Origin: Hyphomicrobiales bacterium
Lineage (GTDB): Bacteria > Pseudomonadota > Alphaproteobacteria > Rhizobiales > Rhizobiaceae
NCBI GenBank assembly: GCA_017305935.1
Contig: JAFKJU010000036.1
Location: 1-56,632, forward strand
DNA length: 56,632 nt
Direction: 5' to 3'
Shown here: piece after piece, positions 2,318 to 43,354 of the stretch
Position numbering within the stretch: position 1 is the first letter of the stretch
How the letters are laid out: the number at the start of each line of letters is the position of its first letter
The notes under the pieces: generated by a model
Database searches by the model: none
What the model was told of the DNA's origin: nothing
Seen by the model: the letters and a program-made list of their open reading frames with translations, nothing else
Position numbers and translations under genes: made by a program

Positions 2318-2337
2318 AGACTACTGGAGGACGCCAT

Positions 2338-3336: not shown

Positions 3337-3426
3337 CCGTAAACCCCGAACTGGATAAAGCCTCGTCGGCGAGGCCCCGTGCGGGCCTTGTCCGGCAGAT
3401 GAAAGCCGACCGATAGGAGATGCTCC

Positions 3427-4671: not shown

Positions 4672-4734
4672 CAGGAGAGTTGGCTTCGCGCCGCCTCTCA
4701 AAACTATGCTCGAAATACAGAACCGGAGTGACAC

Positions 4735-5058: not shown

Positions 5059-5164
5059 GCTCCGCTGTCCGCAACTTGCTCCCTTTCGCGCCTCAGGAGT
5101 CCATTTGAGTATTCTGCAATTCGTGACATGTTGAGCCCAAGAGCAATGTCTGATGAGCTGACGT

Positions 5165-10225: not shown

Positions 10226-10459
10226 TCACATTTGAGGAAGTGGACGCGCAAGATGGCCGAAGACGTCGGCGACGAAATCTTCGGCCGCGCGGGCCGGATC
10301 GTCGCCCGCCGGGGCAATACCCTGCGCCTGTTCGAGCTGCGCGACGCGCTCGCGCAGGATGGACACTTCGGCGGCCAGCGCCACCACGCTGGCAAAGACA
10401 CGCTCCGTCATCTCATCCGCAAAGAAGCCCGGTTGCGGGCGGTCAGGCATGGTCGTCAT
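10226..10459 (-). CDS. Small hypothetical protein with a coiled-coil segment
   Basis: A 77-residue acidic protein, first gene of the methyltransferase/hydrolase operon. Residues ~14-45 form one amphipathic helix (DEMTERVFASVVALAAEVSI, then LRERVAQLEQAQG) with a heptad pattern suited to a coiled coil. The rest is an Ala/Asp-rich tail. I do not recognise the family. Spacing of nine bases to the methyltransferase gene suggests tight co-expression, and it could be a small subunit or chaperone for that enzyme. ATG at 10459 gives the longest frame; a start at the fourth codon (MPDRP) is also possible. Confidence 0.6.
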   Translation of the reverse strand: MTTMPDRPQPGFFADEMTERVFASVVALAAEVSILRERVAQLEQAQGIAPAGDDPARAAEDFVADVFGHLARPLPQM

Positions 10460-10768: not shown

Positions 10769-11716
10769 TCAGGCCGTGTACGCGGTGTTGTATTTGACGG
10801 CATATTGATTGACCGTCAGCAACTGCTTCTCCAGCGCCTGCATGGCGGGGAAACCCATCAGAGTCCAGATGTCGTCGATGCCCACCAGCAGATCGGGGCG
10901 ATCGGCCGGCACGCCGGTCTCCATGACCTCGCGCATGACCGCGAGCGCCTCGCGCATCGCTTTGATCGCGGCGGCGGGCAGCATGCGCGGCAGGCTGACG
11001 CGGCGCACGCCGAGTTCCTTGAGGCGCGGCAACGGTATCAGCGGCGTCGTCGGGCGGGCGCGGATGCCGAAGCCCATATTGACCGAAACCGGCCTGCCGC
11101 CGGCCGCCTCGACAATGCGGGCAATCTGCTCCTCGGACTTGACGGCGTCGGGAAAGATCGCGTCGGCGCCAGCCGCGACATAGGCGCGGATGCGCTCCAG
11201 CGTCGCGTCGAGCCCTTCCACCGCCAGCGCATCGGTGCGGGCGATGATGACGAAATCGTCGTCGCGGCGGGCGAGACAGGCCGCCTCGATCTTCTTCACC
11301 ATCTCATCGCGCGAGACCACCTCCTTGCCCGGCATGTGGCCGCAGCGCTTGGGACTGACCTGGTCCTCCAGATTGACGCCGGCGACGCCGGCCTCCTCGA
11401 ACATCTGCACGGTGTAATGCACGTTCATCGGATTGCCGTAGCCGTTGTCGGCGTCGCAGGTGAGCGGGATGGAGATGGCACGCGCCAGATGCCGGCAATG
11501 GTTGACGTTTTCGCTCAAGCCCATCATGCCGAGATCTTCGACACCGAGGATGGCGTTGGCAATGGCCGCGCCGCTGGTGCAGGCGCTCTTGAAACCGGCC
11601 GCCTCGACCAGGCGGGCGCTGTAGCCGTCGAAAACGCCGGGAGAGACGATGAACTCGCCGGAATTTAACAGGGCGCGGAACGCGGACGGGGCCGATATAT
11701 TGGGTCTGGCACTCAT
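10769..11716 (-). CDS. Isocitrate lyase / PEP mutase superfamily C-C lyase
   Basis: A 315-residue TIM-barrel enzyme of the ICL/PEP mutase superfamily. The metal-binding block is CDADNGYG at 87-94. The lyase loop is SPKRCGHMPG with catalytic-type Cys125, which favours a true lyase (methylisocitrate or dimethylmalate lyase type, or oxaloacetate decarboxylase-like) over PEP mutase. NLEDQ and FVIIARTDA are further family blocks. These enzymes cleave a substituted malate to pyruvate or glyoxylate plus an acid. It follows the GntR gene by six bases and lies divergent from the aconitase-family hydratase, a pairing seen in methylcitrate and dimethylmaleate pathways. The exact substrate cannot be read. 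Confidence 0.87.
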   Translation of the reverse strand: MSARPNISAPSAFRALLNSGEFIVSPGVFDGYSARLVEAAGFKSACTSGAAIANAILGVEDLGMMGLSENVNHCRHLARAISIPLTCDADNGYGNPMNVHYTVQMFEEAGVAGVNLEDQVSPKRCGHMPGKEVVSRDEMVKKIEAACLARRDDDFVIIARTDALAVEGLDATLERIRAYVAAGADAIFPDAVKSEEQIARIVEAAGGRPVSVNMGFGIRARPTTPLIPLPRLKELGVRRVSLPRMLPAAAIKAMREALAVMREVMETGVPADRPDLLVGIDDIWTLMGFPAMQALEKQLLTVNQYAVKYNTAYTA

Positions 11717-11722
11717 GAATAC

Positions 11723-12415
11723 TTATCTCTCCGCGCCGCCGGCGCCTGGATGTCGGGTTTCGGGAACCTGAGCGAGCACCTGGCGGCCGGCGCGCTCGAC
11801 ATGCGAGCGCATCAGGGATTCGGCGAGCGCCGCGTCACGGGCCTTGACCGCGCGCAGGATCTGCCAGTGCTCTGTGAATGCGTGCTCCTTGCGCTCGGGA
11901 ACCGCACCGGAAATGCGGCGATAGATCCGCAACAAATGGTAGAGATCGCCGCAGAGACTATCGACGATACGGCTGTTCCCGCTCGCCCGGACGATCCGCT
12001 CGTGAAAGTCGAAATGGGTCTTGTCCGCCTGCGGCCCTAAGGCATGGGCTGTCTCCAGATCGGAGATCAGCTTATCGATCGCCTCGTCGGTCATGTGCAA
12101 AGTGGCCAGCCGACAAGCATATCCCTCCAGCGCCTCGCGCATCTGGAAGAGTTCGAGAATAGCCTGCGGCGACAGGGAGACGACGCGGGCACGCATGAAG
12201 GCTTCGCGTGAAACCAGCTGAATGCCCTGAAGACGGCGGATTGCCTCACGCACCGGCCCCCGGCTGACGCCGAAGCGAGTCGCCAGGGCCGACTCGTTGA
12301 CAACCATCCCCGGCTCCAGTTCGCAACTGTAAATGAGATCGAGAATGCGATCGAAGATCTCGTCCCCAAGCGTTTCCGAGCGTCGATCGCTTACGTCTTC
12401 ATCCTGCATCTGCAT
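11723..12415 (-). CDS. GntR-family transcriptional regulator, FCD (FadR) subfamily
   Basis: A 230-residue regulator. The winged helix is at about 17-80 (ESALATRFGVSRGPVREAIR). The C-terminal FCD effector domain carries the usual metal/ligand residues (FDFHERI, EHWQIL, RSHVERA). FCD proteins sense carboxylic acids or related metabolites and often repress adjacent catabolic operons. It is transcribed with the lyase gene and divergent from the aconitase/hydantoinase/amidase operon. A TGTnnACA site lies 30 bases upstream of its own start, suggesting autoregulation. Several further copies elsewhere make it the candidate master regulator of the 8.3-26.4 kb regulon. Confidence 0.88.
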   Translation of the reverse strand: MQMQDEDVSDRRSETLGDEIFDRILDLIYSCELEPGMVVNESALATRFGVSRGPVREAIRRLQGIQLVSREAFMRARVVSLSPQAILELFQMREALEGYACRLATLHMTDEAIDKLISDLETAHALGPQADKTHFDFHERIVRASGNSRIVDSLCGDLYHLLRIYRRISGAVPERKEHAFTEHWQILRAVKARDAALAESLMRSHVERAGRQVLAQVPETRHPGAGGAER

Positions 12416-12444
12416 ATCCTCTCATTAGCAAGAAACCATAAATG

Positions 12445-12610
12445 TGTCAACAGTTCGATCCCTATCGAAACATTCAACTTGTCTTTATCGTCTCAAAAAA
12501 CCACTTATAGTCGCAGTTTCACCGCTTTTGGATCAGAACTGCCGCAATTTTCGGCGCAGACAGAAGTGAAGGTGTTGACAATTCGCGGAGCGGTCCCCAT
12601 CCTGTCGACA
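12445..12610. promoter_or_regulatory. Divergent promoter with three TGTnnACA operator candidates
   Basis: The AT-rich intergenic region between the GntR gene (minus) and the aconitase-family gene (plus) holds TGTCAACA at 12445-12452, TGTTGACA at 12573-12580 and TGTCGACA at 12603-12610. The last is a perfect palindrome 21 bases before the ATG, a repressing position. The 12445 copy shares the longer context AATGTGTCAAC with the copy at 26381. Sites close to both start codons fit autoregulation plus control of the catabolic operon. Confidence 0.62.
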
Positions 12611-12631
12611 CCTTATTAGATGTTATGAGCG

Positions 12632-15349
12632 ATGTCGCAATCCTTGAATCCCAATGACGTTCTGGCCGCCGACGCCGTCGCGGGGCACTATGTCCCGCTC
12701 GCCGCGGTCGCGGCGCGGGCCGGCGTGTCCGTGGCCGAATTGCCCTATGCCTGCCGGGTTTTCGCGGAGAACCTCGAAAGGGGCCGGCTCTGCGACGCTA
12801 ATATCGGCAATGACGACGTGCTGGCCATGCTGCATTGGCGCGATCATCGCGGCGTCGGCGTGCCGCTGAGCATCGGCCGGGTGATCCTGCCAGATTCCAG
12901 CGGCCTGCCCGTCTTGCTCGACCTCGCCTCGCTCCGCGATGCCGTAGCCGAGGCCGGCTGCGATCCAGCCGGCGTCGAGCCGCGCATTCCGGTCGATATC
13001 GTCGTCGATCATTCGCTGCAGGTCGACGTTTCGGCCGTTCCCGACGCCATGGGGCGCAACATGGCGCGCGAATTCGAGCGCAACGGCGAGCGCTACAGTT
13101 TTCTCAAATGGGCGCAGCAGGCCTTCCGTTCCGTCCACGTCCACCCCCCCGGAACCGGCATCATCCATCAGGTCAATCTGGAACACATCGCTCCGGTTGT
13201 CACGCGCGTCGCGACGCCGTTCGGCGAAGTCTCCTGTCCGGATTTCGTCATCGGCGGCGATTCCCACACGCCGATGATCAACGGCATCGGCGTGCTCGGC
13301 TGGGGTGTCGGCGGCATCGAGGCGCAGGCGGCGATGCTCGGCCAGCCCTATATCTTCCCGGTGCCGGAATTCGTCGGCGTCCGGCTCGCCGGGACGCTGC
13401 CGCCGGGCGCGACCGCCACCGATCTCGTGCTCACCGTCACCGAGCGGCTGCGGCGCGAGAGCGTCGTCTCGACGGTGATCGAATATTTCGGGCCGGGCGC
13501 GGAGGCGCTGCCGGTCCCCTCGCGGGCGACGCTCGCCAACATGGCGCCCGAATACGGCGCGACCGCCGGCTTCTTCCCCATCGATGCGCAGACCGTGGCC
13601 TATATCGCCCGCACCCGCTCCGCCGAACATGCCGCCTTCGTCGAGGCCTACGCAAAGGCGAATGCGCTGTTTCGCGCGCCGGGCCTGCCCGATCCGCTCT
13701 ATTCGCGCGTCATCGAGATCGACCTTGCCGAGGTGCGGCGCAGCGTCGCCGGCCCGCGCCGCCCGCAGGACCGGCTGGATCTCGCCACGGTCGCGGCGGA
13801 GTTTGCCGGCCGCCTGTCGCAGCCACTCGCCGAGGGCGGCTTTGCCGCCGATCCCGATGCATCCGTCCCGGTCGCGACTCCCGCCGGCCCGGCGGCGCTG
13901 CGGCACGGGGCGCTGGCAATCGCGGCGATCACCGCCTGCACCAACACCTCCAATCCGGCCGTGATGATCGCCGCCGGCCTGCTGGCGCGCAATGCCGTCG
14001 TGGCGGGGCTTGCCGTTCCCGCCTGGGTCAAGACCTCGCTGGCGCCGGGCTCGCGGGTGGTGACGTGCTATCTCGACGAATTGGGGCTGCTGTCGCCGCT
14101 GGAAAAACTCGGCTTCGGCGTGGTCGGTTATGGCTGCACCACCTGCGGCGGCAAATCCGGGCCGTTGCTGCCGGCCATGGCGCGGGCGATCGACGAGGGG
14201 AGGCTGGTCGCCGCAGCCGCCCTTTCGGGCAACCGCAATTTCGAAGGCCGCATCCATCGGCAGGTGCGCGCCAACTACATCATGTCGCCGCCGCTCGTCG
14301 TCGCCTTCGCTCTGGCCGGGCGCATCGACATCGATCTCGAAAGCGAGCCGCTCAACGGGCCGGATGCGGAAAACCCGATCCGCCTCGCCGATCTGTGGCC
14401 CGACGACGCGGAAATCGCCGCGCTGACCACCCGCGCCGGCGATCCGCACCTGTTTCGCGCGGTCTATGGCGACAGGCCCTCCAGCCTGCTCTGGGACGAG
14501 CTGCCCGCCCCCACCGGCCTGCGCTTCGGCTGGGACCGGCAATCGAGCTACCTGGTCGAGCCGCCCTTCCTCGATCTCGCCCGCGAGCGGGCGCGCGAGG
14601 GCGTGCCGCAGGCGCTGCATGGCGCGCGGGTGCTGGGCGCCTATGGCGATTCGCTGACCACGGACCATATCTCGCCGAGCGGCGAGATCCCCGTCGACAG
14701 CCCGGCCGGGCGTTATCTGATCGGGCTCGGCATCGCGCCGAAGGCGTTCAACACCTATGTCGGCCGCCGCTGCAATCATGAGGTAATGGCCCGCGCCACC
14801 TTCGCCAACCTGCGCATCAGGAACCGGATGGTGCCGGACCGCGAGGGCGGGTTCACGCGGCTTCTGCCGGAGGGCGAGATCGTCAGCGTCCACGAGGCGG
14901 CGACGGAATACGACAGGCGAGGCGTGCCGCTGATCGTGCTCGGCGGCAAGGATTACGGCATGGGCTCCAGCCGCGACTGGGCGGCCAAGGGCTCGGCCCT
15001 GCTCGGCGTGCGCGCCGTCATCGCCGAAAGCTACGAGCGCATCCATCGCTCCAACCTGATCGGTATGGGCGTGGTGCCGCTGCGCTTCGCCGGGGGGGAA
15101 GGCTGGCACCGGCTCGGTCTCGACGGCAGCGAGACTTTCGACATCGAAGGGCTTGCGGATGCGGTCGAGGGCAGCGCTCCGGCAACGGTCACCGCGACCG
15201 GCGCTTCGGGGCCAATCCGCTTCACGGTCACGGCCGACGTTTCGACACGCAGCGAGCGCGCCTGCCTGCGCCATGGCGGCGTCATGGCGGAAGTCCTGGC
15301 TTTCTTTACCCGGCGCGACGCGCCGAACACGATGACGGAGCATTCATGA
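12632..15349 (+). CDS. Aconitase-family hydratase (single-chain AcnA type)
   Basis: A full-length, 905-residue [4Fe-4S] hydro-lyase. The cluster cysteines are Cys436 (TACTNTSNP), Cys502 and Cys505 (YGCTTCGG). Substrate-side motifs GGDSHTPMINGIGVLGWGVG, GDSLTTDHISPSG and DYGMGSSRDWAAKGS are intact. All four domains are present, so it is a working enzyme. It could be a true aconitase, but its place next to a cyclic amidohydrolase, an amidase and a PEP-mutase-type lyase argues for a dedicated hydratase acting on a substituted maleate/citraconate-like acid. The following ATG overlaps its stop by four bases. The promoter carries TGTnnACA sites. A housekeeping acnA copy should exist elsewhere; that is untested. 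Confidence 0.88.
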   Translation: MSQSLNPNDVLAADAVAGHYVPLAAVAARAGVSVAELPYACRVFAENLERGRLCDANIGNDDVLAMLHWRDHRGVGVPLSIGRVILPDSSGLPVLLDLASLRDAVAEAGCDPAGVEPRIPVDIVVDHSLQVDVSAVPDAMGRNMAREFERNGERYSFLKWAQQAFRSVHVHPPGTGIIHQVNLEHIAPVVTRVATPFGEVSCPDFVIGGDSHTPMINGIGVLGWGVGGIEAQAAMLGQPYIFPVPEFVGVRLAGTLPPGATATDLVLTVTERLRRESVVSTVIEYFGPGAEALPVPSRATLANMAPEYGATAGFFPIDAQTVAYIARTRSAEHAAFVEAYAKANALFRAPGLPDPLYSRVIEIDLAEVRRSVAGPRRPQDRLDLATVAAEFAGRLSQPLAEGGFAADPDASVPVATPAGPAALRHGALAIAAITACTNTSNPAVMIAAGLLARNAVVAGLAVPAWVKTSLAPGSRVVTCYLDELGLLSPLEKLGFGVVGYGCTTCGGKSGPLLPAMARAIDEGRLVAAAALSGNRNFEGRIHRQVRANYIMSPPLVVAFALAGRIDIDLESEPLNGPDAENPIRLADLWPDDAEIAALTTRAGDPHLFRAVYGDRPSSLLWDELPAPTGLRFGWDRQSSYLVEPPFLDLARERAREGVPQALHGARVLGAYGDSLTTDHISPSGEIPVDSPAGRYLIGLGIAPKAFNTYVGRRCNHEVMARATFANLRIRNRMVPDREGGFTRLLPEGEIVSVHEAATEYDRRGVPLIVLGGKDYGMGSSRDWAAKGSALLGVRAVIAESYERIHRSNLIGMGVVPLRFAGGEGWHRLGLDGSETFDIEGLADAVEGSAPATVTATGASGPIRFTVTADVSTRSERACLRHGGVMAEVLAFFTRRDAPNTMTEHS

Positions 15350-16707
15350 GTTTCGATCTGCTGCTGGAGGGGGGCGAGATCGTCTTCCCGGATATGGGTG
15401 TGCGCACCGGCTCGGTCGCGGTCAAGGACGGGCGCATCGCCGCCCTGCTGGCGCCCGGCGAGCGGGTGCAGGCGAAGGAGGTCGTGGATTGCCGCGGCAA
15501 ATGGGTGATGCCGGGCCTGATCGATCCGCATACCCATATCGGCTTCGGCTCGAACGACACAGATTTCGAGACGGAATCGCGCTCGGCGGCCATCGGCGGC
15601 GTCACCGGCCTGATGACCTTTCACCGCTCCAACGACCTGCGCCAGTCGACCGGGCCGTGGAAGGAGCACGGCGAAAGCCAGTCGCTGATCGATTTCGGCT
15701 TCCATTTCGGCGTCACCAGCAGGCTGCATATCGACACGCTGCCCGAATGCGCCGAACGCTTCGGCGTCACCTCGATCAAGGTCTACCTGATGTACAAGGG
15801 CGCGTCCGGCGCGGCCAAGGGCTTTACCGAGATCGACGACGGGCTGCTCTACCGGGCGCTGCTGCAGGGCGCGCGCATCAAGGGCGGCATCGTCGGCGTC
15901 CATTGCGAGAATGTCGAGGTCATCCCGGTGTTCCGCGAGCCGCTGAAGGCGGCCGGCCGCAACGACCTGCCCGTCTGGAACGAGCAGAGCCCCGGCTTCC
16001 TCGAAGCGGAAAATGTGTTTCGCGTGATCTATTTCGGCGAAAAGGCCGAGTGCCCGGTCAATATCGTGCATATGTCGAGCGCCGAAAGCCTGGAGATCGT
16101 GCGCCGGGCGAAACGCCCCGGCCGCGCGCCGATCCATGTCGAGACCTGCAGCCATTATCTGGCGCTGACCGACCGGTCGCCCATCGGCTTTCTGGGCAAG
16201 GTCAATCCGCCGCTGCGCTCGACGGACGATGTCGAGGCATTGTGGGAGGGCGTGCGAGACGGCACGATATCCACCGTCGGCTCCGATCACGTTCCGCGCA
16301 AGCGCGAGACCAAGGGGCCGGACATCTGGAAGGCGACCGCCGGCTTTCCCGGGCTCGGCACGCTGCTGCCGGTCCTGATCCATGAGGGCGTCCACAGGCG
16401 CGGCCTGCCGATCGAGCGCATCGCCGCCGTCACCAGCGCCAATGTCGCGAAACTCTATTCGATCCCGAACAAGGGCGGCATGGCGGTCGGCATGGATGCC
16501 GACCTCGTCGTCGTCGATCCCGACCGGGAGATCACCATCGATCCGGCGACGCAGGAATCCTTCTCCGACTATTCTCCCTATGAAGGCATGACCTTCAAGG
16601 GCGCGCCGGTCCGCACCATCCTGCGCGGCCGCACCATCGCCCGAGACGGGGTCGTCGACGCTGAAGCCCGCGCGACACCCGCCGGCCGCTATCTGCACCG
16701 CTCCTGA
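15346..16707 (+). CDS. Hydantoinase/dihydropyrimidinase-family cyclic amidohydrolase
   Basis: A 453-residue binuclear amidohydrolase. All metal ligands are visible: His62 and His64 (DPHTHIG), the carboxylated Lys145 (TSIKVYLMYKG), His186 (GVHCEN), His242 (VHMSSAES) and Asp314 (GSDHVP). This set fits dihydropyrimidinase, hydantoinase, cyclic imidase and allantoinase-like enzymes, which open cyclic amide, imide or ureide rings by hydrolysis. The start overlaps the aconitase-family stop by four bases, so translation is coupled, and the amidase gene follows after 21 bases. In this context I favour ring opening of a cyclic imide or lactam to a half-amide. The substrate is an inference. Confidence 0.88.
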   Translation: MSFDLLLEGGEIVFPDMGVRTGSVAVKDGRIAALLAPGERVQAKEVVDCRGKWVMPGLIDPHTHIGFGSNDTDFETESRSAAIGGVTGLMTFHRSNDLRQSTGPWKEHGESQSLIDFGFHFGVTSRLHIDTLPECAERFGVTSIKVYLMYKGASGAAKGFTEIDDGLLYRALLQGARIKGGIVGVHCENVEVIPVFREPLKAAGRNDLPVWNEQSPGFLEAENVFRVIYFGEKAECPVNIVHMSSAESLEIVRRAKRPGRAPIHVETCSHYLALTDRSPIGFLGKVNPPLRSTDDVEALWEGVRDGTISTVGSDHVPRKRETKGPDIWKATAGFPGLGTLLPVLIHEGVHRRGLPIERIAAVTSANVAKLYSIPNKGGMAVGMDADLVVVDPDREITIDPATQESFSDYSPYEGMTFKGAPVRTILRGRTIARDGVVDAEARATPAGRYLHRS

Positions 16708-16728
16708 AAACCGAAGGCTGAAGACATC

Positions 16729-17460
16729 ATGACCAAACGCATATGGGACGATTTCGTGACCGAGCGCGACAAGCAGGTCTATGCCGCCGCCGGCTATGGC
16801 AAGCGCGGCGGCTTTGGCAAGCGCCCGGCCCTGTTCATCATCGACGTGCAGTATAATTTCTGCGGCGACAAGCCCGAGGATATCCTCGAAGGTCTGAAAC
16901 AATACCGCACCCATTGCGGCCCGGAAGCCTGGGCGGCGGTAGAGCATATCGTGCCGCTGCTCGAACTGGCGCGCGAGAAGAACATCCCGGTCTTCTATAC
17001 CGAAAGCGCCCGCCGGCCGGACATGATCGATTCCGGCGTGCAGGTCGGCAAGAACCATCGCGGCGCCGAAAAAACCTCGACCGAAGGCACGCACGCCACC
17101 CAGACCGTCGCGCCGCTGGCGCCGCGCCCGCAGGATATCCGTATCGGCAAGCGCAAGCCGTCCTGCTTCTTCGGCACGATCTTCATGAGTCATCTCAACT
17201 TCTTCGACGTCGACACGCTGATCCTGACCGGCTGCACAACCTCGGGCTGCCTGCGCGCCACCGCCGTCGACGCCTATTCCTTCAATTTCAAGGTGATCAT
17301 CCCGGAGGAAACGGCCTTCGACCGCTTCCAGGCAAGCCACGCCATCAACCTGTTCGACCTCAACTGCAAATATGCCGACGTCATTCCCTCGGCCGAGGTG
17401 AAGGATTATCTGGACGGCCTCGAAGTCCGCGACGATCTTCCAACCGGCGTGCAGGGCTGA
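16729..17460 (+). CDS. Isochorismatase-family cysteine amidohydrolase
   Basis: A 243-residue hydrolase with the complete catalytic triad: Asp39 (LFIIDVQYNF), Lys143 (GKRKPSCFFG) and Cys174 (GCTTSGCLRAT). The TTSGC(V/L)RA block is typical of N-carbamoylsarcosine amidases and maleamate amidohydrolases (NicF-like). These release ammonia from a linear amide or ureide. It is the third gene of the aconitase/hydantoinase operon and would act directly after ring opening. A strong hairpin follows the stop codon. Maleamate-like or carbamoyl substrates are both possible; the neighbouring hydratase favours an unsaturated dicarboxylic half-amide. Confidence 0.87.
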   Translation: MTKRIWDDFVTERDKQVYAAAGYGKRGGFGKRPALFIIDVQYNFCGDKPEDILEGLKQYRTHCGPEAWAAVEHIVPLLELAREKNIPVFYTESARRPDMIDSGVQVGKNHRGAEKTSTEGTHATQTVAPLAPRPQDIRIGKRKPSCFFGTIFMSHLNFFDVDTLILTGCTTSGCLRATAVDAYSFNFKVIIPEETAFDRFQASHAINLFDLNCKYADVIPSAEVKDYLDGLEVRDDLPTGVQG

Positions 17461-17482
17461 AACCCCCACGATACCCGAAACG

Positions 17483-17520
17483 AGGAAGGGCGGCCCGGTT
17501 TCAACCAGACCGCCCTTCCT
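17483..17520. terminator. Bidirectional hairpin terminator between convergent operons
   Basis: An 11-base perfect stem (AGGAAGGGCGG at 17483-17493 and CCGCCCTTCCT at 17510-17520), with an inner GGTT/AACC pairing, is followed by GTTTTC. It lies between the stop of the plus-strand amidase gene and the stop of the minus-strand flavin reductase gene, so it can end transcription from both sides. Confidence 0.75.
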
Positions 17521-17540
17521 GTTTTCAGCTCCTGTCGCCG

Positions 17541-18053
17541 TCAGCCCATGTCGAGCGGCTGCATGTCCCGGCGGTAATAGATCAGCGGCGTCTCGTCCCA
17601 GGTGTCGTGATTGGCGCCGAGCACGTCGGCGAAGAAGACGCCATGCGTGCCGGCGGGATAGATATGGGTGACACAGCAATCCAGCCATGCCGACGCGCCT
17701 TCGATCAGCGGGCTTCCGGTGATCCCCGTCTGTTGCCCGATGCCCTGGAAGCGCGCCGCCTGATCGAGGCCGGGCGTGGCGAAGCGCCTTGCGATTTCCT
17801 GCTGCGAGCCGCCGAGAATGTTGATCGCATAGACCCCGGACTTTTCGATGGCGAAATAGCCCCGGCTGTTGCGGTTGAGGCAGATCAGCACGCGCGGCGG
17901 CGCGAAGGACACCGAGGTGAAGGAGTTGATGGTCATCCCAACCGGGCCGCCTTCATCGAAGCTGGTGACCACGACGACCCCGGTGGGCAGGCGCGACATC
18001 GCCTGGCGCAGGTCGTCCTGGCTGACGATGGAGACGGGATCGACATGCGCCAT
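17541..18053 (-). CDS. Flavin reductase-domain protein (NAD(P)H:FMN oxidoreductase)
   Basis: A 170-residue protein of the flavin reductase-like FMN-binding family. Typical blocks are MSRLPTGVVVVTS, GMTINSFTSVSFAPPRVLIC, YFAIEKSGVYAINIL and, near the end, GVFFADVLGA. These enzymes supply reduced FMN to a partner monooxygenase. The ATG at 18053 lies one base after the stop of the PucR-type gene and is preferred over the longer frame. It is the last gene of the seven-gene operon that also encodes the acyl-CoA dehydrogenase-like oxygenase, making the pair a likely two-component flavin monooxygenase. Confidence 0.85.
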   Translation of the reverse strand: MAHVDPVSIVSQDDLRQAMSRLPTGVVVVTSFDEGGPVGMTINSFTSVSFAPPRVLICLNRNSRGYFAIEKSGVYAINILGGSQQEIARRFATPGLDQAARFQGIGQQTGITGSPLIEGASAWLDCCVTHIYPAGTHGVFFADVLGANHDTWDETPLIYYRRDMQPLDMG

Positions 18054-18054
18054 G

Positions 18055-19797
18055 TCACGCCTCCCGCCGGTTCTGGCGGGCGCGCGCGCCCAGATATTCG
18101 AGCGCCGCGGCCAGGGTCGCGACATCCTGATACAAAGCGAGATCCAGCCGCGTCAGGGCGGCAGCGCGGGCGAGAAGGCCGGCCAGCACCTCGCTGTCAC
18201 GGTCGAGCGCCGCCGACAGCGCCGCCCGGTCCCCGTTATGTTCGATGAAGGCGTGCAGGACGCCGAGGATATCCTCCCGCTCGGCGCGTTCCAGATCGAG
18301 GATCGGCCCGAGCACGCCGCGCAAGCCCCGTTCGCCCTCGCCGCCGGCCAGATCCTCGACGATGTGGCGCAGGCGCGGCGCATCGGCGTAGAACGGCACG
18401 GAGGCCTTGTCCCCGGCCCGGCCGATGGCGGTCTGGGATTCCTTGTAGCCGGCGGCGATGGCGTCGATGCCGCTGAGGCCGGAGCTGACGCCGATCGACA
18501 CCTGCACCGCCAGAAGCGCCCGCAACCGCCGCAAACGATCCTCCGCATTCGGCGCATCGTCGCGAAGCAGGACGACGACATCGTTGCCCAGCGCCGCCGC
18601 TGCGATGACGCCGAGCCCGGCCTCCGAGGCGCGGCCGATGGCGGTCGCGCAGCGGAAGGCGGCCTCCGGCGTCGGGGTGCGGATCGAGGCCACGCGCAGC
18701 GGCGTGCGCGCCGAGATCGTCAGCAGGTCGGCCAGATCCTTGCGCCGGAGATCGTTGGATTCGCGCGCGCACAGACCGAGAAGCGCCAGCGGACGCACGA
18801 CATCGACCATGCGCCCTTCATGCTTGAGCATCCCGAGCTTGGTCGAAAGCAGGTCGGCGAGGCAAGCGATCAGCCGGGTCGCATCGACCTCGCGCGGCGC
18901 CACCGCCGGGGTGACAAGAATGGCGCCCGCCGCACGGCCGGTCTGCCCGTCGACGGACAGCAGCCGCCCGGTGATGTCGCCGGGAGCCGGCGCTTTGGCA
19001 AGCACCGCTTGCGCCGCCGCGCGCAGCATTTCCCGCTCCGCCCCGCCGGCGACCGAGGCCAGTTCATGACCCTCGGCGTCGACGATGAGGATCGAGCGAT
19101 TGAGCGCGGAGGAAACCACCTCCGCCAGATGGGCCGCGCGCGACGACGATTTGCCGATCGCCGCATCCAGCAGCTTCTGCTGTGCAAAGGAAACGCGGGC
19201 GCGGGCATTTTCCTGCTCGCGCAGGCTGCGGATCTGGTCGCCCGCCTGTCCCGCCTCGTTGCGCATCGCCTCGATGGACAGCGCGATGGCGACCGCGCCG
19301 GCGGCCGCCTGCCAGAGGCGGGAGGAGCCCGCCGTTTCGGGATCGGCCGGCGCCGGGCCGGCCAGATGGCAGGCGGCGACTGCGATGACTTCCAGCGTGC
19401 CCCGGTTGCGGCCGGCAACAATCAGCGGCACGACGAGCGTTCCCGCGTATCGGCCCGCCTCGTCGGTTCCGCCTGTCACGCCGCCCGGCTCTTCGGCCGG
19501 CGACCAGAGACGCGTTCCGGTCTCGCAGGCCCGGCCCACCGGCCATGCGTTGCCCGGAACCTCGATCCAGCCATCGGCGTCGGAGATGAGCTCGGCCTGT
19601 CGCGGCAGGCCCCAGGGCTCGAACGCCCTGACGCCGCCGTCGGTCGAGACCCAGAGATCGACCGCCACCGCGCCGAGCGCCTCGCCGATCAGCGCGGCGG
19701 TATCGGCGAGCGTCGCCGTCAGCGCCTGCAATTCGCCCCTGGCGAAAAGGCTTTCCAGCAGGCACGCATCCGTCCGTGTCGCGGCCGCCTCGCTCAT
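18055..19797 (-). CDS. PucR/CdaR-type transcriptional regulator with GAF-like sensor domain
   Basis: A 580-residue regulator. The N-terminal ~200 residues resemble a GAF sensor (LADTAALIGEALGAVAVDLW, later GTLVVPLIVAGRNRGTLEVI). A helical linker follows, then a GGDEF-like region near VSIGVSSGLSGIDAIAAGYK. The C-terminus has a PucR-type helix-turn-helix area (LGVLHAFIEHNGDRAALSAA), rather divergent from the consensus. PucR proteins commonly control purine, allantoin and other nitrogen-compound catabolism. The start at 19797 overlaps the stop of the oxygenase gene by four bases; the longer frame upstream is only the antisense-free shadow of that gene. It lies inside the operon it probably regulates. 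Confidence 0.75.
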   Translation of the reverse strand: MSEAAATRTDACLLESLFARGELQALTATLADTAALIGEALGAVAVDLWVSTDGGVRAFEPWGLPRQAELISDADGWIEVPGNAWPVGRACETGTRLWSPAEEPGGVTGGTDEAGRYAGTLVVPLIVAGRNRGTLEVIAVAACHLAGPAPADPETAGSSRLWQAAAGAVAIALSIEAMRNEAGQAGDQIRSLREQENARARVSFAQQKLLDAAIGKSSSRAAHLAEVVSSALNRSILIVDAEGHELASVAGGAEREMLRAAAQAVLAKAPAPGDITGRLLSVDGQTGRAAGAILVTPAVAPREVDATRLIACLADLLSTKLGMLKHEGRMVDVVRPLALLGLCARESNDLRRKDLADLLTISARTPLRVASIRTPTPEAAFRCATAIGRASEAGLGVIAAAALGNDVVVLLRDDAPNAEDRLRRLRALLAVQVSIGVSSGLSGIDAIAAGYKESQTAIGRAGDKASVPFYADAPRLRHIVEDLAGGEGERGLRGVLGPILDLERAEREDILGVLHAFIEHNGDRAALSAALDRDSEVLAGLLARAAALTRLDLALYQDVATLAAALEYLGARARQNRREA

Positions 19798-20996
19798 AGC
19801 GTGGCCTTCGGCGCCACGCCCCTGGTTTCCAGCGCCCAGCGCCCGAGGTCGCGTTCGCGGATCGTCAGCACGTCCTGGACGCTGAGGGTGCGGGCATTTC
19901 GCCAGAAGCGATCCAGCCTGAAGGCGTTCGAGCTGGACTGGCCGCCGCAGAGGATCTGCATCTCGCCGCTGACTTCCGTCGCCGTGCGCACCGCCATCAG
20001 CTTGGCGACGGCGGCCATCTGCATCGCTTCCGGTCCGGTGATGCCGTCCTGGCCGCGCAGGAATTTTTCGGTGAGGCGCGCCGATTGCGTCAGCGTCGAG
20101 CGCGCGGCGGTGACGGCGGCGGTATAGCGGCCGATGGCGCAGAGGATCACCGGATCCTCGGCGGCGCCGGCATAGGACGAGCGGTTGCGCATGAAATCGC
20201 ACAGGGCATCCAACGCGCCCTCGGCGATGCCGACCGACATGGCGGCAAGGTTGTTCTGGCGATCCGGGGCCGCCCAGGGCACGCTCGTTCCGGCGGTCGT
20301 CCAGTGGAACCCGTCCGGCACGAAGACGTCGTGATAGGTCACGGAATTGCTGCAGGTCGCCCGCTGGCCCATATTGTCCCAGTCGTTGAGAACCTCGACG
20401 CCTTCGCTCTTCAGGTCGATGAGCACTTCGTGGTCGCCGATCCGGGTGCCGTCGTCGGCCATCATGGCGACGGTGGAATGGACATAGGTCGAGCCGGTGA
20501 TCCCCGTTCCGAAATGCTTGGTTCCGCTGACGACGACGCCGCCCTTCACCTTGCGGCACGGCACCTCGAACAGGTGCCGGACCTTGTAGCGCTCGGCCGA
20601 TGCGTCGCAGAAGCGGACGCGCTCGGTCTTCATGCGCTCGATGAGGGTTTGCCTGGCTTCCGGCCCCAGCGGCGAGCCCTCGCGCAGATATTCGTAGCTG
20701 TGCTGGCGGGTGACCAGGAAGATCTGGGCGGTGGAGCTTTCGCCGGCCGCCAGGTCGGCGATGATCTCGGTCAGCGCCGAGACGTCGTCGATGCGGTCAT
20801 GGGAGGCCGAGCCGTTGTTGATGCCGGCGGGCACGCCGAGCGACAACAGGCCCGAATCCTCGATGAGACGGATATTGTCGAACGGATAGTCGCCGGTGCG
20901 GTCGACCTCGGCGGACGTCTTCTGCATTTCGGCGCGCACCGCCTTGGCGACCGGGATGAAATCGGCGGCGCATTTGGGTCTCGACGGTTGAAACAT
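19794..20996 (-). CDS. Acyl-CoA dehydrogenase-fold flavin monooxygenase (DszC/SfnC/indole oxygenase-like)
   Basis: A 400-residue protein with the acyl-CoA dehydrogenase fold: an N-terminal helical domain (LIEDSGLLSLGVPAGINNGS), a central beta domain (KGGVVVSGTKHFGTGITGST) and a C-terminal four-helix domain (QILCGGQSSSNAFRLDRFWR). No CoA gene context and a flavin reductase in the same operon suggest it is an FMNH2-dependent monooxygenase rather than a dehydrogenase. ATG at 20996 is preceded by GGAGG at the proper distance, so I prefer it to the GTG four codons upstream. Members oxidise N- or S-heterocycles, sulphones or indole. It follows the importer ATPase gene by only 24 bases. Confidence 0.8.
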   Translation of the reverse strand: MFQPSRPKCAADFIPVAKAVRAEMQKTSAEVDRTGDYPFDNIRLIEDSGLLSLGVPAGINNGSASHDRIDDVSALTEIIADLAAGESSTAQIFLVTRQHSYEYLREGSPLGPEARQTLIERMKTERVRFCDASAERYKVRHLFEVPCRKVKGGVVVSGTKHFGTGITGSTYVHSTVAMMADDGTRIGDHEVLIDLKSEGVEVLNDWDNMGQRATCSNSVTYHDVFVPDGFHWTTAGTSVPWAAPDRQNNLAAMSVGIAEGALDALCDFMRNRSSYAGAAEDPVILCAIGRYTAAVTAARSTLTQSARLTEKFLRGQDGITGPEAMQMAAVAKLMAVRTATEVSGEMQILCGGQSSSNAFRLDRFWRNARTLSVQDVLTIRERDLGRWALETRGVAPKATL

Positions 20997-21020
20997 GGAA
21001 TCCTCCACAGGCTGTATGAC

Positions 21021-22910
21021 TTAGAAACGGGGCTCGCTGGAAACCGGCGGCACGCAAGGAGCGTCGGCAGCGACATAGGTTCGCAAGGACGGCGGGGACG
21101 CTTGCAGCAGGTCCACGACGTAGTTCGTCTCCGGCCGTTCGAAGATGTCCTTGCAGGGACGTTGCTCGACCAGCTCGCCGTGCAGCATCACGGCCACCTC
21201 GTCGGCGATGGAGCGCACCAGCGGAAGCTGGTGGGTGATCAGCAGGATGCCGACGTCCCCCGAGTCCACCAGGCTGCGCAGCAGCTCGACGATGCCGGCC
21301 TGCACCGAGACGTCGAGCGATGCGGTAACCTCGTCGCAAAGCAGGAATTGCGGCTCGCAGACGAGGGCTCTGGCGATGGCGACGCGCTGGCGCTCGCCGC
21401 CGCTGAGCTGGCCGGGATAGCGGTGCCACAGCGCCTCGGACAGGCCGACGCGGCGAAAGGCGCGGGCGACGTTTTCCGCGCGCGCGGCGGCGCTTTCGCT
21501 TGGCATCACCGTGCGGCGGGCGTTGGCGACGCTGCCATGGGCGCGCCGCTTCGGGTTGAGGCAGGCATGCGGGCTCTGAAAGATATACTGGATGCGCCGG
21601 TGTGCCGCGCTGTCGCGATCCCCGGCGGCGGCGGCGAGCACCTTTCCGTCGAGCATGACCTGCCCGCCGGTATAGCGGTTGAGGCCGATGACGGCGCGGG
21701 CGAAGGAAGACTTGCCGCTGCCCGACTGGCCGACGAGCGCCACGCATTGACCGACCCGGACCTTGAGGCTGACGCCATGCACGACTTCGGTTCCGCCATG
21801 GCTGACCCGCAGGTCGACCGCCTCCAGCATCGGGCCGGGGCCGACGGCGCGCGGCTTCACCAGCATCGCCGACGCCAGGTCGAACGGCTTCACCTCTCCG
21901 CTTTTCACGCATCGCGCCAGATGGCTTTCGCCGACCTGACGCAATTCCGGCACCGCCGCCGTGCAGATATCGGCGGCGAGCGGACAGCGGGGATGATAGG
22001 CGCAGCCCTCCGGCCGCTGGTCGACGCGCGGCGGCTTGCCGGCAATCCCCTGCAGCCGGCTCGGCCGCGACATGTCGGGGGAAGCTTCCATCAGGCCCTT
22101 GGAATAGGGATGCCTGGGATCGCGAAGAACCGTCTTCAGCGGTCCCTGCTCGATGATCCGTCCCGAATACATCACACAGACGGAATCGGCGATTTCGGCG
22201 ACGGTATCGAGATCGTGGCTGACGAAGACCACGGCCGTGCGCTGCGAGCGGGCGAGCGCGGTGATCAGTTGCAGCACGCGGCGCTGAACGATGACGTCGA
22301 GACCGGTCGTCGGCTCGTCCATCACCACCACGCTCGGATCACCGCCGAAGGCGCAGGCGATCGCCAGGCGCTGCTGCTGGCCGCCCGACAGTTCATGCGG
22401 AAAACGCCGCAGGAAATTCCGGTCCGCCGGCAGGTCCACGCCGACGAGCAGCCTCGAAATCGTCGCGGCGATCTCGGCGGACGAGGCCGAGGGCAACCGG
22501 TGGCGCAGCAATTCCTCGATGATACGCCCGACGCGACGGGCGGGATTGAGCGCCGTGCTGGCGTCCTGCGGCACATAGGAGATGGCCCGGCCGCGCAACG
22601 CCCGGCGCCCGGCCTCGTCCAGTTCCAGCAACTGGCGTCCGCCGACCTCGACCTCGCCCGTGATCTGCAGGCCGGGCGGGGCATAGCCCAGCAGCGCCTG
22701 CGCCATCGTCGACTTGCCGGAACCGGATTCGCCGACGAGCCCGAGGATCTGGCCGACCTTCAAAGTCAGCGAGGCCGACTGGATGATCTGCGCACCACTG
22801 CGCATGGCCACCGTCAGATCGGTCGCCCGCAGCACATAGCCGCTTTCGGGACCGTCTGCGGGGTGGCCTTCGGTCGCGGCAAGCCTGTTTGGTTCGTTGA
22901 GTACAAGCAT
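21021..22910 (-). CDS. Peptide/nickel-type ABC transporter, fused double ATP-binding subunit (DppD-DppF fusion)
   Basis: A 629-residue protein with two complete ATPase halves. Half one has Walker A GESGSGKST, signature LSGGQQQR and Walker B VVVMDEPTTG. Half two has GQSGSGKSS, LSGGERQR and FLLCDEVTAS. The linker holds an oligopeptide-type C-terminal zone with Cys residues (CAYHPRCPLAADIC). It powers import by the two permeases upstream. The ATG at 22910 overlaps the permease stop (TGATG). Fusions of DppD and DppF are known in rhizobial importers of peptides, opines and other small molecules. The cargo is unknown; co-transcription with the monooxygenase suggests the pathway substrate. Confidence 0.9.
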   Translation of the reverse strand: MLVLNEPNRLAATEGHPADGPESGYVLRATDLTVAMRSGAQIIQSASLTLKVGQILGLVGESGSGKSTMAQALLGYAPPGLQITGEVEVGGRQLLELDEAGRRALRGRAISYVPQDASTALNPARRVGRIIEELLRHRLPSASSAEIAATISRLLVGVDLPADRNFLRRFPHELSGGQQQRLAIACAFGGDPSVVVMDEPTTGLDVIVQRRVLQLITALARSQRTAVVFVSHDLDTVAEIADSVCVMYSGRIIEQGPLKTVLRDPRHPYSKGLMEASPDMSRPSRLQGIAGKPPRVDQRPEGCAYHPRCPLAADICTAAVPELRQVGESHLARCVKSGEVKPFDLASAMLVKPRAVGPGPMLEAVDLRVSHGGTEVVHGVSLKVRVGQCVALVGQSGSGKSSFARAVIGLNRYTGGQVMLDGKVLAAAAGDRDSAAHRRIQYIFQSPHACLNPKRRAHGSVANARRTVMPSESAAARAENVARAFRRVGLSEALWHRYPGQLSGGERQRVAIARALVCEPQFLLCDEVTASLDVSVQAGIVELLRSLVDSGDVGILLITHQLPLVRSIADEVAVMLHGELVEQRPCKDIFERPETNYVVDLLQASPPSLRTYVAADAPCVPPVSSEPRF

Positions 22911-23746
22911 CACATATGCACACTTTGATCGAGGTAGCGGCGCGTCAGCCCGTCGGTGACGAGGTTCACGCCGACGCAGATCGCGACGATCGCCACCACC
23001 GGCAACACCACGCCCCAGGGCTGCAATTCGAGGCCGCTCTGGTTTTCCGCCAGCATGACGCCCCAGTCGGGCGTGAAGGGCGAAACGCCGTAGCCGAGGA
23101 AATGAACGGCGGTGGCCAGCGACAGCGATGCCGTGAAATAGATGGGAATGAGCGCCAGAATCTGCGGCACCACATTCGGCGCGATCTCCTGCACCAGCAG
23201 GCGGAACTTGCCGGTCCCGATCGCCACCGCGGCCTGGAAATATTCCGTCAGCGATATGGCGACCGCCGCGACCCGGATGATGCGCGCCACCGGCGGCGCC
23301 AGCACCAGCCACAGGACGAAGAGAACCGCTAGCTCGCTGTCGGTCGTGCCCGTCATGACCACGAGAATCAGCACCAGGGGCGGAAACACCATGATCCCAT
23401 CGAGGACGCGGTAGAGCAGATCGGCGCCATGTCCGCTGAAGACGCCGCCGGCAAGCCCGAGGATGCTGCCGATAAAGACGGCCCCCAGGGATCCAAGCCC
23501 GGCGACGCCCAGCAACTGCCAGCCGCCATGCAGGAAGCGGCTCAGCACGTCATGGCCTTCGAAATCCGTTCCGAACATGGCCTCCGGCGTCGGCGGCGAC
23601 AGGGGCATGTCGACGAAATCGATCGGCCCGTAGGCGCTGAACCGGCTGCCGAAGATACCGATCAGGATCACCGGCATCAGGGCGAGGCCGACGCAGGCCC
23701 GCGCCGAAAGGGCATACCAGTTGCGGATTGCGAGCTTTTTCATCAT
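22910..23746 (-). CDS. Peptide/nickel-type ABC transporter permease (DppC-like)
   Basis: A 278-residue inner-membrane permease. An N-terminal segment is followed by the periplasmic stretch FGTDFEGHDVLSRFLHGG, typical of DppC/OppC proteins. Transmembrane segments and an EAA-type cytoplasmic loop (AVAIGTGKFRLLVQEIAPNV) follow. The C-terminus has FTPDWGVMLAENQ, another DppC hallmark. It pairs with the DppB-like permease, whose stop it overlaps by four bases, and its own stop overlaps the ATPase start. It forms half of the import channel. Confidence 0.9.
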   Translation of the reverse strand: MMKKLAIRNWYALSARACVGLALMPVILIGIFGSRFSAYGPIDFVDMPLSPPTPEAMFGTDFEGHDVLSRFLHGGWQLLGVAGLGSLGAVFIGSILGLAGGVFSGHGADLLYRVLDGIMVFPPLVLILVVMTGTTDSELAVLFVLWLVLAPPVARIIRVAAVAISLTEYFQAAVAIGTGKFRLLVQEIAPNVVPQILALIPIYFTASLSLATAVHFLGYGVSPFTPDWGVMLAENQSGLELQPWGVVLPVVAIVAICVGVNLVTDGLTRRYLDQSVHM

Positions 23747-24792
23747 GCGCGGCGCGTCCTGTCTCTGGGGGTCGCAAGACGCGCGAGCACGTCCGAAACG
23801 ATGAACACACAGACCACCGCCACGGCGATGATGACCGTCAAAGCCTGCACGACCTGAATATCGCGATTGTGGACCGACTGGTTGAGCGCGCTGCCGACGC
23901 CCGGCAGGCCGAAGAGGATCTCCACCACCACCGCGCCGCCGAGCGTATCGGCAAGCGCGACGCCGATCGCCTGGATGCAGGTCGGCAGCGCATTCGGCAG
24001 CGCCTGCAGGAAGATGACATTGCTTTCCGGCAGGCCGTTGAGGCGGGCGCTGGTGACGTAGCTCATCTGCATCACGTCACGCATGGCCGCCCGTGCATTG
24101 TAGACCACTCCGGAGACGACGCCGAGCGCCAGCGTCAATGCCGGCAGGACAAACAGCGACAGTTGGTCCCAGAGCGGCTTGTCGGGGGAGATCGACGAGA
24201 TCGCCGGCAGCACCGCCCAGACGGAGGTCGCGAAAAGGAGGGTCAGCACCATCCCCGTCACCACGTTCGGCACCGCGCCGAAGATGACCGTGAGGCTGGC
24301 GACCGCGCGATCCAGAAACGAGCCCGGCCGCACGGCAGACAGCACGCCGAGCGTCAGCGCGACCGGATAGGCCAGGATGCTGGCGAACAGGACCAGGATG
24401 CCGGTGACGGCGAAGCGGTGCGCGACGAAATCCCAGACCGTCATGTCGTTGACAAGCGAGGTTCCGAAATCGCCGAAAACCGCCCGCTTCAGCCAGAGAG
24501 CGTATCGCTCCCAGGCGGGAAGATCGAGATGGAGCAGCGCGCGAAGCTGCTCCACGCGCTCGGGGCTCGCCTCCTGGCCGAGGATCACCCGGGCGGTATC
24601 CCCCGGCAGGATCTCGGTGGCCAGAAACACGGCCAGACTGATGACCAGAACGGTGACCGCGCCGGCGCCGATCCGCCGCACGAGGAACCCGGACCAGCTC
24701 CGCGGCTGCAACCAGTTGCGCAGCCGCGTGCGAAATGACAGTTCCGCTTGCCTGGTCACGACGGGATCAATCGACGCGCTGGAGGGAGGCAT
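23743..24792 (-). CDS. Peptide/nickel-type ABC transporter permease (DppB-like)
   Basis: A 349-residue inner-membrane permease with the DppB plan: a long N-terminal tail, a first membrane segment (VTVLVISLAVFLATEILPGD), an extracytoplasmic region with RLDLPAWERY-like spacing, and an EAA loop (TSARLNGLPESNVIFLQALP NALP split by a few residues). VEILFGLPGVGSALNQSVHN near the C-terminus is diagnostic. It overlaps the binding-protein gene by 26 bases and the DppC-like gene by four. The start at 24792 has no clear ribosome binding site, which fits translational coupling to the preceding gene. Confidence 0.88.
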   Translation of the reverse strand: MPPSSASIDPVVTRQAELSFRTRLRNWLQPRSWSGFLVRRIGAGAVTVLVISLAVFLATEILPGDTARVILGQEASPERVEQLRALLHLDLPAWERYALWLKRAVFGDFGTSLVNDMTVWDFVAHRFAVTGILVLFASILAYPVALTLGVLSAVRPGSFLDRAVASLTVIFGAVPNVVTGMVLTLLFATSVWAVLPAISSISPDKPLWDQLSLFVLPALTLALGVVSGVVYNARAAMRDVMQMSYVTSARLNGLPESNVIFLQALPNALPTCIQAIGVALADTLGGAVVVEILFGLPGVGSALNQSVHNRDIQVVQALTVIIAVAVVCVFIVSDVLARLATPRDRTRRA

Positions 24793-26314: not shown

Positions 26315-26380
26315 TGCGTTCTCCCCATCCATCCGGGCCAAGCGCCCCTCTGCGTAAAACCCTAACACCGCGCCCAAATG

Positions 26381-40174: not shown

Positions 40175-40225
40175 TTTGTGTCTCCTCGTTCGATTGCTGG
40201 TTAATGGAGCCGCGCCGGCTAAAAA

Positions 40226-40240
40226 CTTTAACGATATAAA
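40226..40240. promoter_or_regulatory. LacI-type operator candidate, degenerate copy
   Basis: CTTTAACGATATAAA matches 12 of 16 positions, including the central ACG and the right half, of the perfect palindrome at 44930-44945 when the alignment is extended one base to the left. It lies in the divergent promoter between the oxygenase gene (start 40174) and the LacI gene (start 40401), as expected for a repressor that controls itself and its neighbour. Confidence 0.5.
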
Positions 40241-43229: not shown

Positions 43230-43354
43230 GTCTTCCTCCGGTTCGATTGCGCCTGCAGCGCGGCCAAGGCCATGCGGTCGGGCGCAATCGCCCGGCCGCA
43301 GACAGGATGTTCTGGATAAAAGGAGATGCAGCGTCCGTTCGGACGTAACGCGTC

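Follow-up and report, generated by a model that had tools for sequence, protein, structure and literature searches.

The window analysed here is one whole contig (C68, 56,632 bases) of a 6.5-Mb Hyphomicrobiales genome assembled in 108 contigs (GCA_017305935.1). It contains a core of five genes, encoding a lyase, a GntR regulator, an AcnA-like hydratase, a cyclic amidohydrolase and an isochorismatase-type amidase, which is a real and widely conserved unit. The core genes, with the evidence for each assignment, are:

10769..11716 (-), LYA, a lyase of the isocitrate lyase (ICL)/phosphoenolpyruvate (PEP)-mutase superfamily, methylisocitrate/dimethylmalate-lyase type (profile and PDB matches, alignment)
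11723..12415 (-), GntR/FCD regulator of the core (profile match; a family member in 65 of 80 related loci)
12632..15349 (+), ACN, an AcnA-like hydratase (profile match, alignment)
15346..16707 (+), AMH, a cyclic amidohydrolase, hydantoinase/allantoinase/dihydropyrimidinase-like (profile match, alignment)
16729..17460 (+), ISO, an isochorismatase-fold amidase, N-carbamoylsarcosine/maleamate amidase-like (PDB matches, alignment)

LYA carries KRCGH at residues 123-127 together with the DADxGYG and ARTDA motifs of the ICL/PEP-mutase superfamily. It scored 246.5 bits against the 354.4-bit cut-off of the PrpB equivalog, and is thus not assigned to methylisocitrate lyase PrpB; 2,3-dimethylmalate lyase (3fa3) was among its best PDB matches. 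Its loop NMGFGIRARPTTP at residues 213-225 is conserved, the corresponding short loop of methylisocitrate lyase (1mum) being NITEFGATP, and the arginines R219, R221 and R244 are kept in 65 of 66 aligned sequences. In ACN, the cluster cysteines are Cys436, Cys502 and Cys505; C502, C505, R535, R540 and R721 are present in all 68 aligned sequences and C436 in at least 97%, which places it among the aconitase-superfamily hydratases. R721 is followed by A, I or V in 65 of the 68, and the host's own AcnA has G there. The score of ACN against the 2-methylisocitrate dehydratase AcnD equivalog (755 bits, cut-off 1420) leaves it outside that family as well. The host genome encodes another AcnA-type frame of 913 residues on a different contig, 47% identical to ACN, and a third PF00330 match is a 495-residue frame. 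The idea that ACN is the sole AcnA of the genome was therefore rejected, and it is probably not the housekeeping aconitase of the tricarboxylic acid (TCA) cycle. The loop arginines of LYA and the changed neighbour of R721 in ACN would both fit an enlarged or extra-charged substrate.

In AMH, the six metal ligands of the cyclic amidohydrolase superfamily (H62, H64, K145, H186, H242 and D314) and Tyr150 were found in all 74 aligned sequences. AMH shares these residues with the dihydropyrimidinase/hydantoinase/allantoinase family, and its closest matches are hydantoinases and allantoinases, but in all 25 NCBIfam models shown it stays under the curated cut-off, also in that for D-hydantoinase/dihydropyrimidinase (291 bits vs 393). 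Two other genes of the host genome exceed the latter cut-off, with 600 and 558 bits, so that a role for AMH as an ordinary dihydropyrimidinase of the pyrimidine pathway was rejected. ISO has D39, K141 and C174 in 8 of 8 aligned sequences and shares the fold, the D-K-C positions and the DR motif with solved amidase relatives, the nearest being N-carbamoylsarcosine amidohydrolase; two further near relatives, 3ot4 and 4l07, are the maleamate amidases NicF and Ami. It differs from these in forming a tight family of its own, with at least 71% identity over the 80 loci kept (see below), and is the best conserved protein of the core. The AMH ligands, the ACN cysteines and the ISO triad are assigned to these positions from what is known of the families.

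Among 249 genomes sampled from the order, seven others encode ISO at 77-80% identity. LYA, ACN and AMH lie beside it in all seven and a GntR relative in four, a count that leaves out GntR matches at 29-31% in two others of the seven. None of LYA, ACN and AMH was found in the six fetched genomes whose best ISO relative was 41-53% identical (G100, G230, G161, G211, G032, with a contig of only 4.5 kb, and G225). When species genomes were scanned with the ISO alignment, 85 relatives were found, of which we retained the best 80; this set may lack records very close to the window. Genes were called and grouped with our own script (single linkage, >38% identity, 60% coverage). Since the 80 loci were chosen by ISO, the linkage counts are conditional on it: AMH occurs in 75, ACN in 71, the GntR family in 65, LYA in 64 and all four enzymes together in 64. 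Several of the 16 loci without at least one core enzyme are at contig ends or on short contigs. Many loci have ACN, AMH and ISO arranged in tandem on the same strand; in the window itself, the frames of ACN and AMH overlap. The co-localisation of LYA, ACN, AMH and ISO exceeds chance.

The hosts of these loci include Bosea, Achromobacter, Bordetella, other Alcaligenaceae, Rhodobacteraceae, other Alphaproteobacteria, Azospirillum, Gluconacetobacter and Shinella, among others. Plasmid-borne copies of ISO at 77-82% identity were found in two Shinella records and in Antarctobacter (two of these regions were read), and no ISO was detected at E<=1e-60 in the two congeneric genomes. This scattered occurrence, with ISO missing from both congeners, suggests that the core is a mobile trait.

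A sequence-only reading of positions 10769-24792 had proposed a dedicated catabolic pathway for a cyclic imide or N-heterocycle, composed of six families, and had named three findings that would count against it, namely lack of conservation, ACN as the only aconitase and AMH as an ordinary dihydropyrimidinase. None of the three was borne out: the four enzymes recur in 7 of 7 order genomes and 64 of 80 loci, another AcnA is present, and AMH falls under its cut-off in a genome with two genuine dihydropyrimidinases elsewhere. The families and motifs were as described, alignments returning the KRCGH of LYA, the six ligands of AMH, the triad of ISO and the three cysteines of ACN, and the linkage of the four enzymes across many genera supports a dedicated catabolic unit, with families suited to opening an imide, hydrolysing the half-amide, and hydrating and cleaving the product. 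The co-occurrence claim held for the lyase, hydratase, amidohydrolase and amidase, but neither for the monooxygenase and reductase, which were in none of the 80 loci, nor for the importer; the six families as one conserved set were thus rejected. Overall, the earlier reading was partly supported.

From the families, the motif residues, the linkage of the core and the HemC association seen in relatives (see below), we infer a series of reactions, their order and a substrate. AMH would hydrolyse an imide ring to a half-amide, which ISO would convert to the free acid and ammonia. ACN would then hydrate the double bond of a substituted cis-aconitate or maleate, a saturated skeleton possibly being desaturated beforehand by the tricarballylate-dehydrogenase-like flavoprotein of some relatives, and LYA would split the resulting hydroxy acid, giving an alpha-keto acid and a carboxylate. 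Of the possible rings, a maleimide or succinimide formed from a pyrrole with carboxylate side chains would be the likeliest. A porphobilinogen-type pyrrole, with acetate and propionate, would yield 2-oxoglutarate and succinate; hematinic acid would yield either 2-oxoglutarate and propionate or pyruvate and glutarate. In this scheme, varied upstream genes would feed one core: tripartite tricarboxylate transporter (TTT) importers with short-chain dehydrogenase/reductase (SDR) or other dehydrogenase genes; a flavin adenine dinucleotide (FAD) monooxygenase with an aldehyde dehydrogenase, an aminotransferase, an ATP-binding cassette (ABC) importer and often HemC; and, in this window only, a flavin mononucleotide (FMN) monooxygenase with a reductase and an Opp importer. 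We give about even odds to the view of the core as a regulated unit for breaking down the cyclic imide of a branched, unsaturated polycarboxylate, most likely from a pyrrole with carboxylate side chains.

The gene modules beside the core in relatives bear on the nature of the substrate. In 45 of the 80 loci, TctC and related TTT genes occur without an FAD monooxygenase (type i), accompanied by two SDR dehydrogenase families (39 and 20 loci) and a flavocytochrome-c/TcuA-like FAD dehydrogenase (22 loci), which is only a relative of tricarballylate dehydrogenase given its TcuA score of 147 bits against a cut-off of 369. A polyanionic substrate is suggested by the TTT genes (45/80), the TcuA-like flavoprotein (22/80) and the extra arginines in the LYA loop. 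Type (ii) loci, 23 in all, have a class A FAD monooxygenase whose best PDB match is PnpA, with HspB fifth, both enzymes that swap a ring substituent for oxygen. Always together with it, an arylmalonate-decarboxylase-like protein is found in 22 loci; an aldehyde dehydrogenase (18 loci), a GntR-UTRA regulator (13), a RidA-like protein (10) and a class III aminotransferase (9, with more just outside the loci) also belong to this type, as does a polyamine-type ABC importer, with its binding protein in 13 of the 80. The types overlap, three loci having both transporter and monooxygenase genes, and Bosea-type loci also hold the SDR and FAD dehydrogenases. Type (iii) loci share genes with the window: L074 and L114 have its methyltransferase and hydrolase, and L091 has the methyltransferase. 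A CobW-type GTPase is present in 36 of the 80 loci, 3' of ISO in many betaproteobacteria, and perhaps serves the metallation of AMH.

Further enzymes were noticed beside several clusters. Near one core (L031, 539-3203, (-)), a second ICL-type lyase, 42% identical to LYA, adjoins LeuC/LeuD-like proteins and a branched-chain-type ABC importer (by eye) and resembles a dimethylmaleate-type hydratase/lyase pair. MmgE/PrpD-like proteins (families f34 and f35, by eye) occur in four betaproteobacterial clusters (L051, L055, L085 and L089), and a Shinella plasmid (L145) has an annotated MmgE/PrpD protein with a second AcnA. Diaminopimelate/ornithine-decarboxylase-like proteins, one of them checked, adjoin the methyltransferase variant in L074 (2029-4832) and L114 (713-2152).

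We searched 61 genomes (12 including the window's own, then 49) for hydroxymethylbilane synthase (HemC) and then read regions, proximity in the remaining genomes being taken from listed positions only. HemC adjoins the type (ii) FAD-monooxygenase/ABC module in 10 of the 61, in about six arrangements: six Bosea-type genomes, Azospirillum, Shinella (on a plasmid too), a Burkholderiales metagenome-assembled genome (MAG) and Chachezhania, in which HemC lies in a stand-alone type (ii) module and the core on a different contig. HemC stands beside module genes in L048 (Azospirillum) and L084 (Shinella), the former having the ABC importer and RidA and no FAD monooxygenase in the stretch read. As an independent test, the sole FAD-monooxygenase match at E<=1e-75 among 385 class genomes came from the 70%-complete genome G534, and HemC adjoins it. 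In the five cluster copies aligned (L043, L048, L084, L091 and L097), the catalytic Asp and the cofactor Cys, whose roles are described in an excerpt of PMC3949521, are intact.

In the HemC tree, the Shinella cluster copy groups with that of Chachezhania (98/94), apart from Shinella's other HemC, and the cluster copies of Bosea and G534 (a partial row of 193 residues) fall in another clade with one further Bosea non-cluster copy. HemC thus seems to have travelled with the module and to have been recruited more than once. With an assumed p of 0.01, the probability of its presence in at least 3 of 14 lineages is 3.4e-4, both p and the lineage count being estimates. A second HemC lies elsewhere in the genomes of L048, L084 and L097. 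No module was seen in the 11 HemC regions read away from the cluster (L141, L143, L148, L159 and L161-L167), several of which have tsaD- or hemD-like neighbours (by eye). If HemC, the porphobilinogen enzyme, is taken as a guide, the most economical starting compound is a pyrrole that carries acetate and propionate.

Other HemC variants were also seen. The Burkholderiales MAG has an adjacent hem operon, and its other HemC has KN for KD and lacks the cofactor Cys. In L138 (15198-16118, (-)), a HemC homologue with both the catalytic Asp and the cofactor Cys replaced lies directly 5' of a hemD-like gene (by eye), 1.2 kb from an intact-looking HemC beside the cluster. Four Bosea-type genomes (G256, G262, G263 and G265) yielded only the unusual cluster-type HemC, a canonical one not being detected there, while Bosea sp. 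Root483D1 (G295) has both.

A more specific version of the imide reading, dedicated bacterial catabolism of porphobilinogen-type pyrroles, appears possible, although we hold it to be doubtful. An aminotransferase and an aldehyde dehydrogenase would remove the aminomethyl group, the FAD (here FMN) monooxygenase would produce the imide bearing acetate and propionate, AMH, ISO, ACN and LYA would release ammonia, 2-oxoglutarate and succinate, and the co-inherited HemC would keep heme synthesis supplied or protected.

In the window, the core is flanked by the following genes:

8322..9161 (-), alpha/beta hydrolase (accompanies the methyltransferase in L074 and L114)
9158..10216 (-), methyltransferase (also beside the core in L074, L091 and L114)
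10226..10459 (-), 77-residue protein adjoining the methyltransferase (by eye, L114 and L091 have small proteins like it in the equivalent position)
17541..18053 (-), flavin reductase, neighbour of the core (profile match)
18055..19797 (-), PucR/CdaR-like regulator, a name inferred from a GGDEF_2 match only
19794..21008 (-), SfnB/DszC-type two-component flavin (FMN) monooxygenase, neighbour of the core (profile and sequence matches)
21021..22910 (-), fused Opp/Dpp-type ABC ATPase (profile match)
22910..23746 (-), ABC permease (open frame; 29-30% identity to permeases in L086 and L117)
23743..24792 (-), ABC permease (open frame; 30-35% identity to permeases in L086 and L117)
24767..26332 (-), ABC substrate-binding protein, SBP_bac_5 family (profile match)

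Every gene named by the earlier reading was confirmed as an open frame in the open reading frame listing of the window, and its family by profile matches. The two regulators, the methyltransferase, the alpha/beta hydrolase and the 77-residue protein had gone unmentioned, and the binding protein of the importer falls beyond position 24792. The FMN monooxygenase and the flavin reductase had no match in the 80 core loci (tblastn, 1e-10), and no relative of the monooxygenase was found in 249 order genomes besides its own (E<=1e-110, at most seven candidates scored per genome) or in the plasmid collection (E<=1e-80). At related loci, the core is accompanied by different transporters and oxygenases, and co-localisation beyond chance is not established for the monooxygenase, reductase and importer. 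The putative link between the monooxygenase and the core has only their adjacency and their shared absence from two congeners behind it.

It is somewhat less than an even chance that the FMN monooxygenase, reductase and Opp importer form an unrelated desulfurisation or amine-oxidation operon that adjoins the core by coincidence, an explanation compatible with any reading of the core. The likeness of the monooxygenase to SfnB and DszC points that way, as does the lack of both it and the reductase in all 80 loci. On the other hand, ISO and the monooxygenase are both confined to this genome within the genus (none in the other two at E<=1e-60), as a single island would give, and other clusters likewise pair an oxygenase and an importer with the core.

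Several observations weigh against the pyrrole-derived imide as substrate. No HemC lies in the window, and the one HemC of the host genome is apart from the cluster. A search of this genome for an FAD monooxygenase at E<=1e-75 (with 5 of 48 candidates scored) was negative, and its best aminotransferase match, at 32%, is not close; consequently, the pyrrole link is borrowed from relatives. The earlier suggestion of tetrapyrrole breakdown products thus gains from HemC beside the FAD-monooxygenase version in relatives and loses from the lack of a clustered HemC, a close FAD monooxygenase and a close aminotransferase here. Among the 23 FAD-monooxygenase loci, no HemC was seen in 15, most of them viewed to at most 10 kb from ISO and the genome of L109 remaining outside the search. 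Searches found no HemC other than the cluster copy in L043, L044, L045, L049, G297 and G534 (four Bosea-type genomes, Chachezhania and G534). We therefore rejected the idea that it is always an extra copy, and in these genomes it may be a housekeeping gene next to which the module sits. The module in L091 borders a hem operon. No oxygenase was noticed in most TTT-type clusters, whose substrate would then already have to be an imide or lactam. ACN scores 1040 bits against the 945-bit cut-off of the AcnA equivalog TIGR01341 and also exceeds both AcnA subfamily cut-offs in NCBIfam, and a sequence model alone would label it plain aconitase. Finally, the kinship of ISO to an N-carbamoyl amidase would suit a hydantoin equally.

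Other explanations of the core were considered. A six-membered glutaconimide such as citrazinate (2,6-dihydroxyisonicotinate) would account for all four enzymes with plain cis-aconitate: AMH and ISO would form cis-aconitate via cis-aconitamide, ACN would convert it to isocitrate, and LYA would release glyoxylate and succinate. Isonicotinate is broken down via citrazinate and cis-aconitamide; no paper on this route was found in our literature search. The passing of the AcnA cut-offs by ACN and the invariance of its C502, C505, R535, R540 and R721 in 68 of 68 sequences agree with such a substrate. However, the housekeeping AcnA would be enough for this task, LYA belongs by its KRCGH with the methylisocitrate/dimethylmalate lyases and has an altered loop, HemC is left unexplained, and no molybdenum hydroxylase genes were noticed among the called neighbours (by eye, with no family search made). 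We regard citrazinate as unlikely. A ureide, such as a hydantoin or a dihydropyrimidine acid, would suit the proximity of AMH to hydantoinases and allantoinases and of ISO to N-carbamoylsarcosine amidohydrolase, with AMH opening the ring, ISO stripping the carbamoyl group, and ACN and LYA acting on another compound under a shared regulator. Its product would be an amino acid, an unlikely substrate for ACN, and the one-strand tandem of ACN, AMH and ISO in many loci, with the ACN/AMH overlap in the window, speaks against a division of labour of this kind, which we consider quite unlikely.

The core might also be a generic methylaconitate/methylisocitrate unit with imide side activity, serving a different substrate with each upstream module, HemC adjacency reflecting shared genomic hot spots. 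The strong divergence of the upstream modules and the sole HemC copies of several genomes would be expected in that case, but the grouping of HemC copies follows the cluster and not the host, Shinella pairing with Chachezhania, a second HemC lies elsewhere in the genomes of L048, L084 and L097, and the placement of HemC varies among lineages, which makes this explanation improbable too.

Elsewhere in the window, two HalD-like genes (Pfam Halogenase D; 39314-40351 and about 42414-43700, (-)), with modest matches of 57 and 60 bits, have a cupin protein in their neighbourhood and, as judged by eye, a LacI-type regulator and an oligopeptide-type binding protein. Iron/siderophore uptake genes, recognised by eye as FecCD-like permeases, binding proteins and a FecR-like protein, are found at 29949-32763 and 45890-53233, together with a TonB receptor with an STN domain. 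A possible operon at 1454-6385 (+) encodes a fatty-acid-hydroxylase-family protein and two ferredoxin-reductase-like flavoproteins (one checked), preceded by an epimerase-like gene without a Pfam match.

Fermentation of nicotinate uses dimethylmaleate hydratase, LeuCD-like in make-up, and 2,3-dimethylmalate lyase. The parallel with these steps drawn by the sequence-only reading is upheld in mechanism, namely in the hydration of a substituted maleate and the subsequent cleavage by an ICL-superfamily enzyme, with KRCGH common to LYA and dimethylmalate lyase, but not in the hydratase, ACN being of the single-chain AcnA type; moreover, imide opening and half-amide hydrolysis are proposed to come first, and the LYA loop differs. 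The 2-methylcitrate cycle (AcnD/PrpB) likewise combines an AcnA-superfamily hydratase with a PrpB-like lyase, whereas the core proteins fall under the AcnD and PrpB cut-offs and are linked to imide-type hydrolases, and no citrate-synthase-type gene was noticed in the cluster (by eye). In the nicotinate pathway of Aspergillus nidulans, as presented in excerpts of PMC9304392, the cyclic imidase HxnM and the amidase HxnN similarly turn a cyclic imide into a half-amide and deamidate it, with alpha-hydroxyglutarate as the product. According to the same excerpts, HxnM, an imidase of another kind, is close to a Pseudomonas putida imidase and to HpPgdA/PuuE, not to hydantoinases, and they describe no aconitase-type hydratase or ICL-type lyase (PMC9304392).

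In the open-access literature, with most subscription papers lying outside it, we found no description of the cluster, of porphobilinogen use or of a bacterial route for pyrrole or imide acids, and the four-enzyme core is undescribed as far as our searches reach. If the imide reading is right, the core would offer a genetic entry point to the bacterial recycling of carbon and nitrogen from pyrrole or imide acids, which possibly include precursors of tetrapyrroles and their breakdown products. Four subfamilies that now carry the names AcnA, amidohydrolase/dihydroorotase family, isochorismatase family and ICL/PEP-mutase family would thereby gain functions, and the annotation of genomes would be corrected where a catabolic hydratase passes for the TCA-cycle aconitase.

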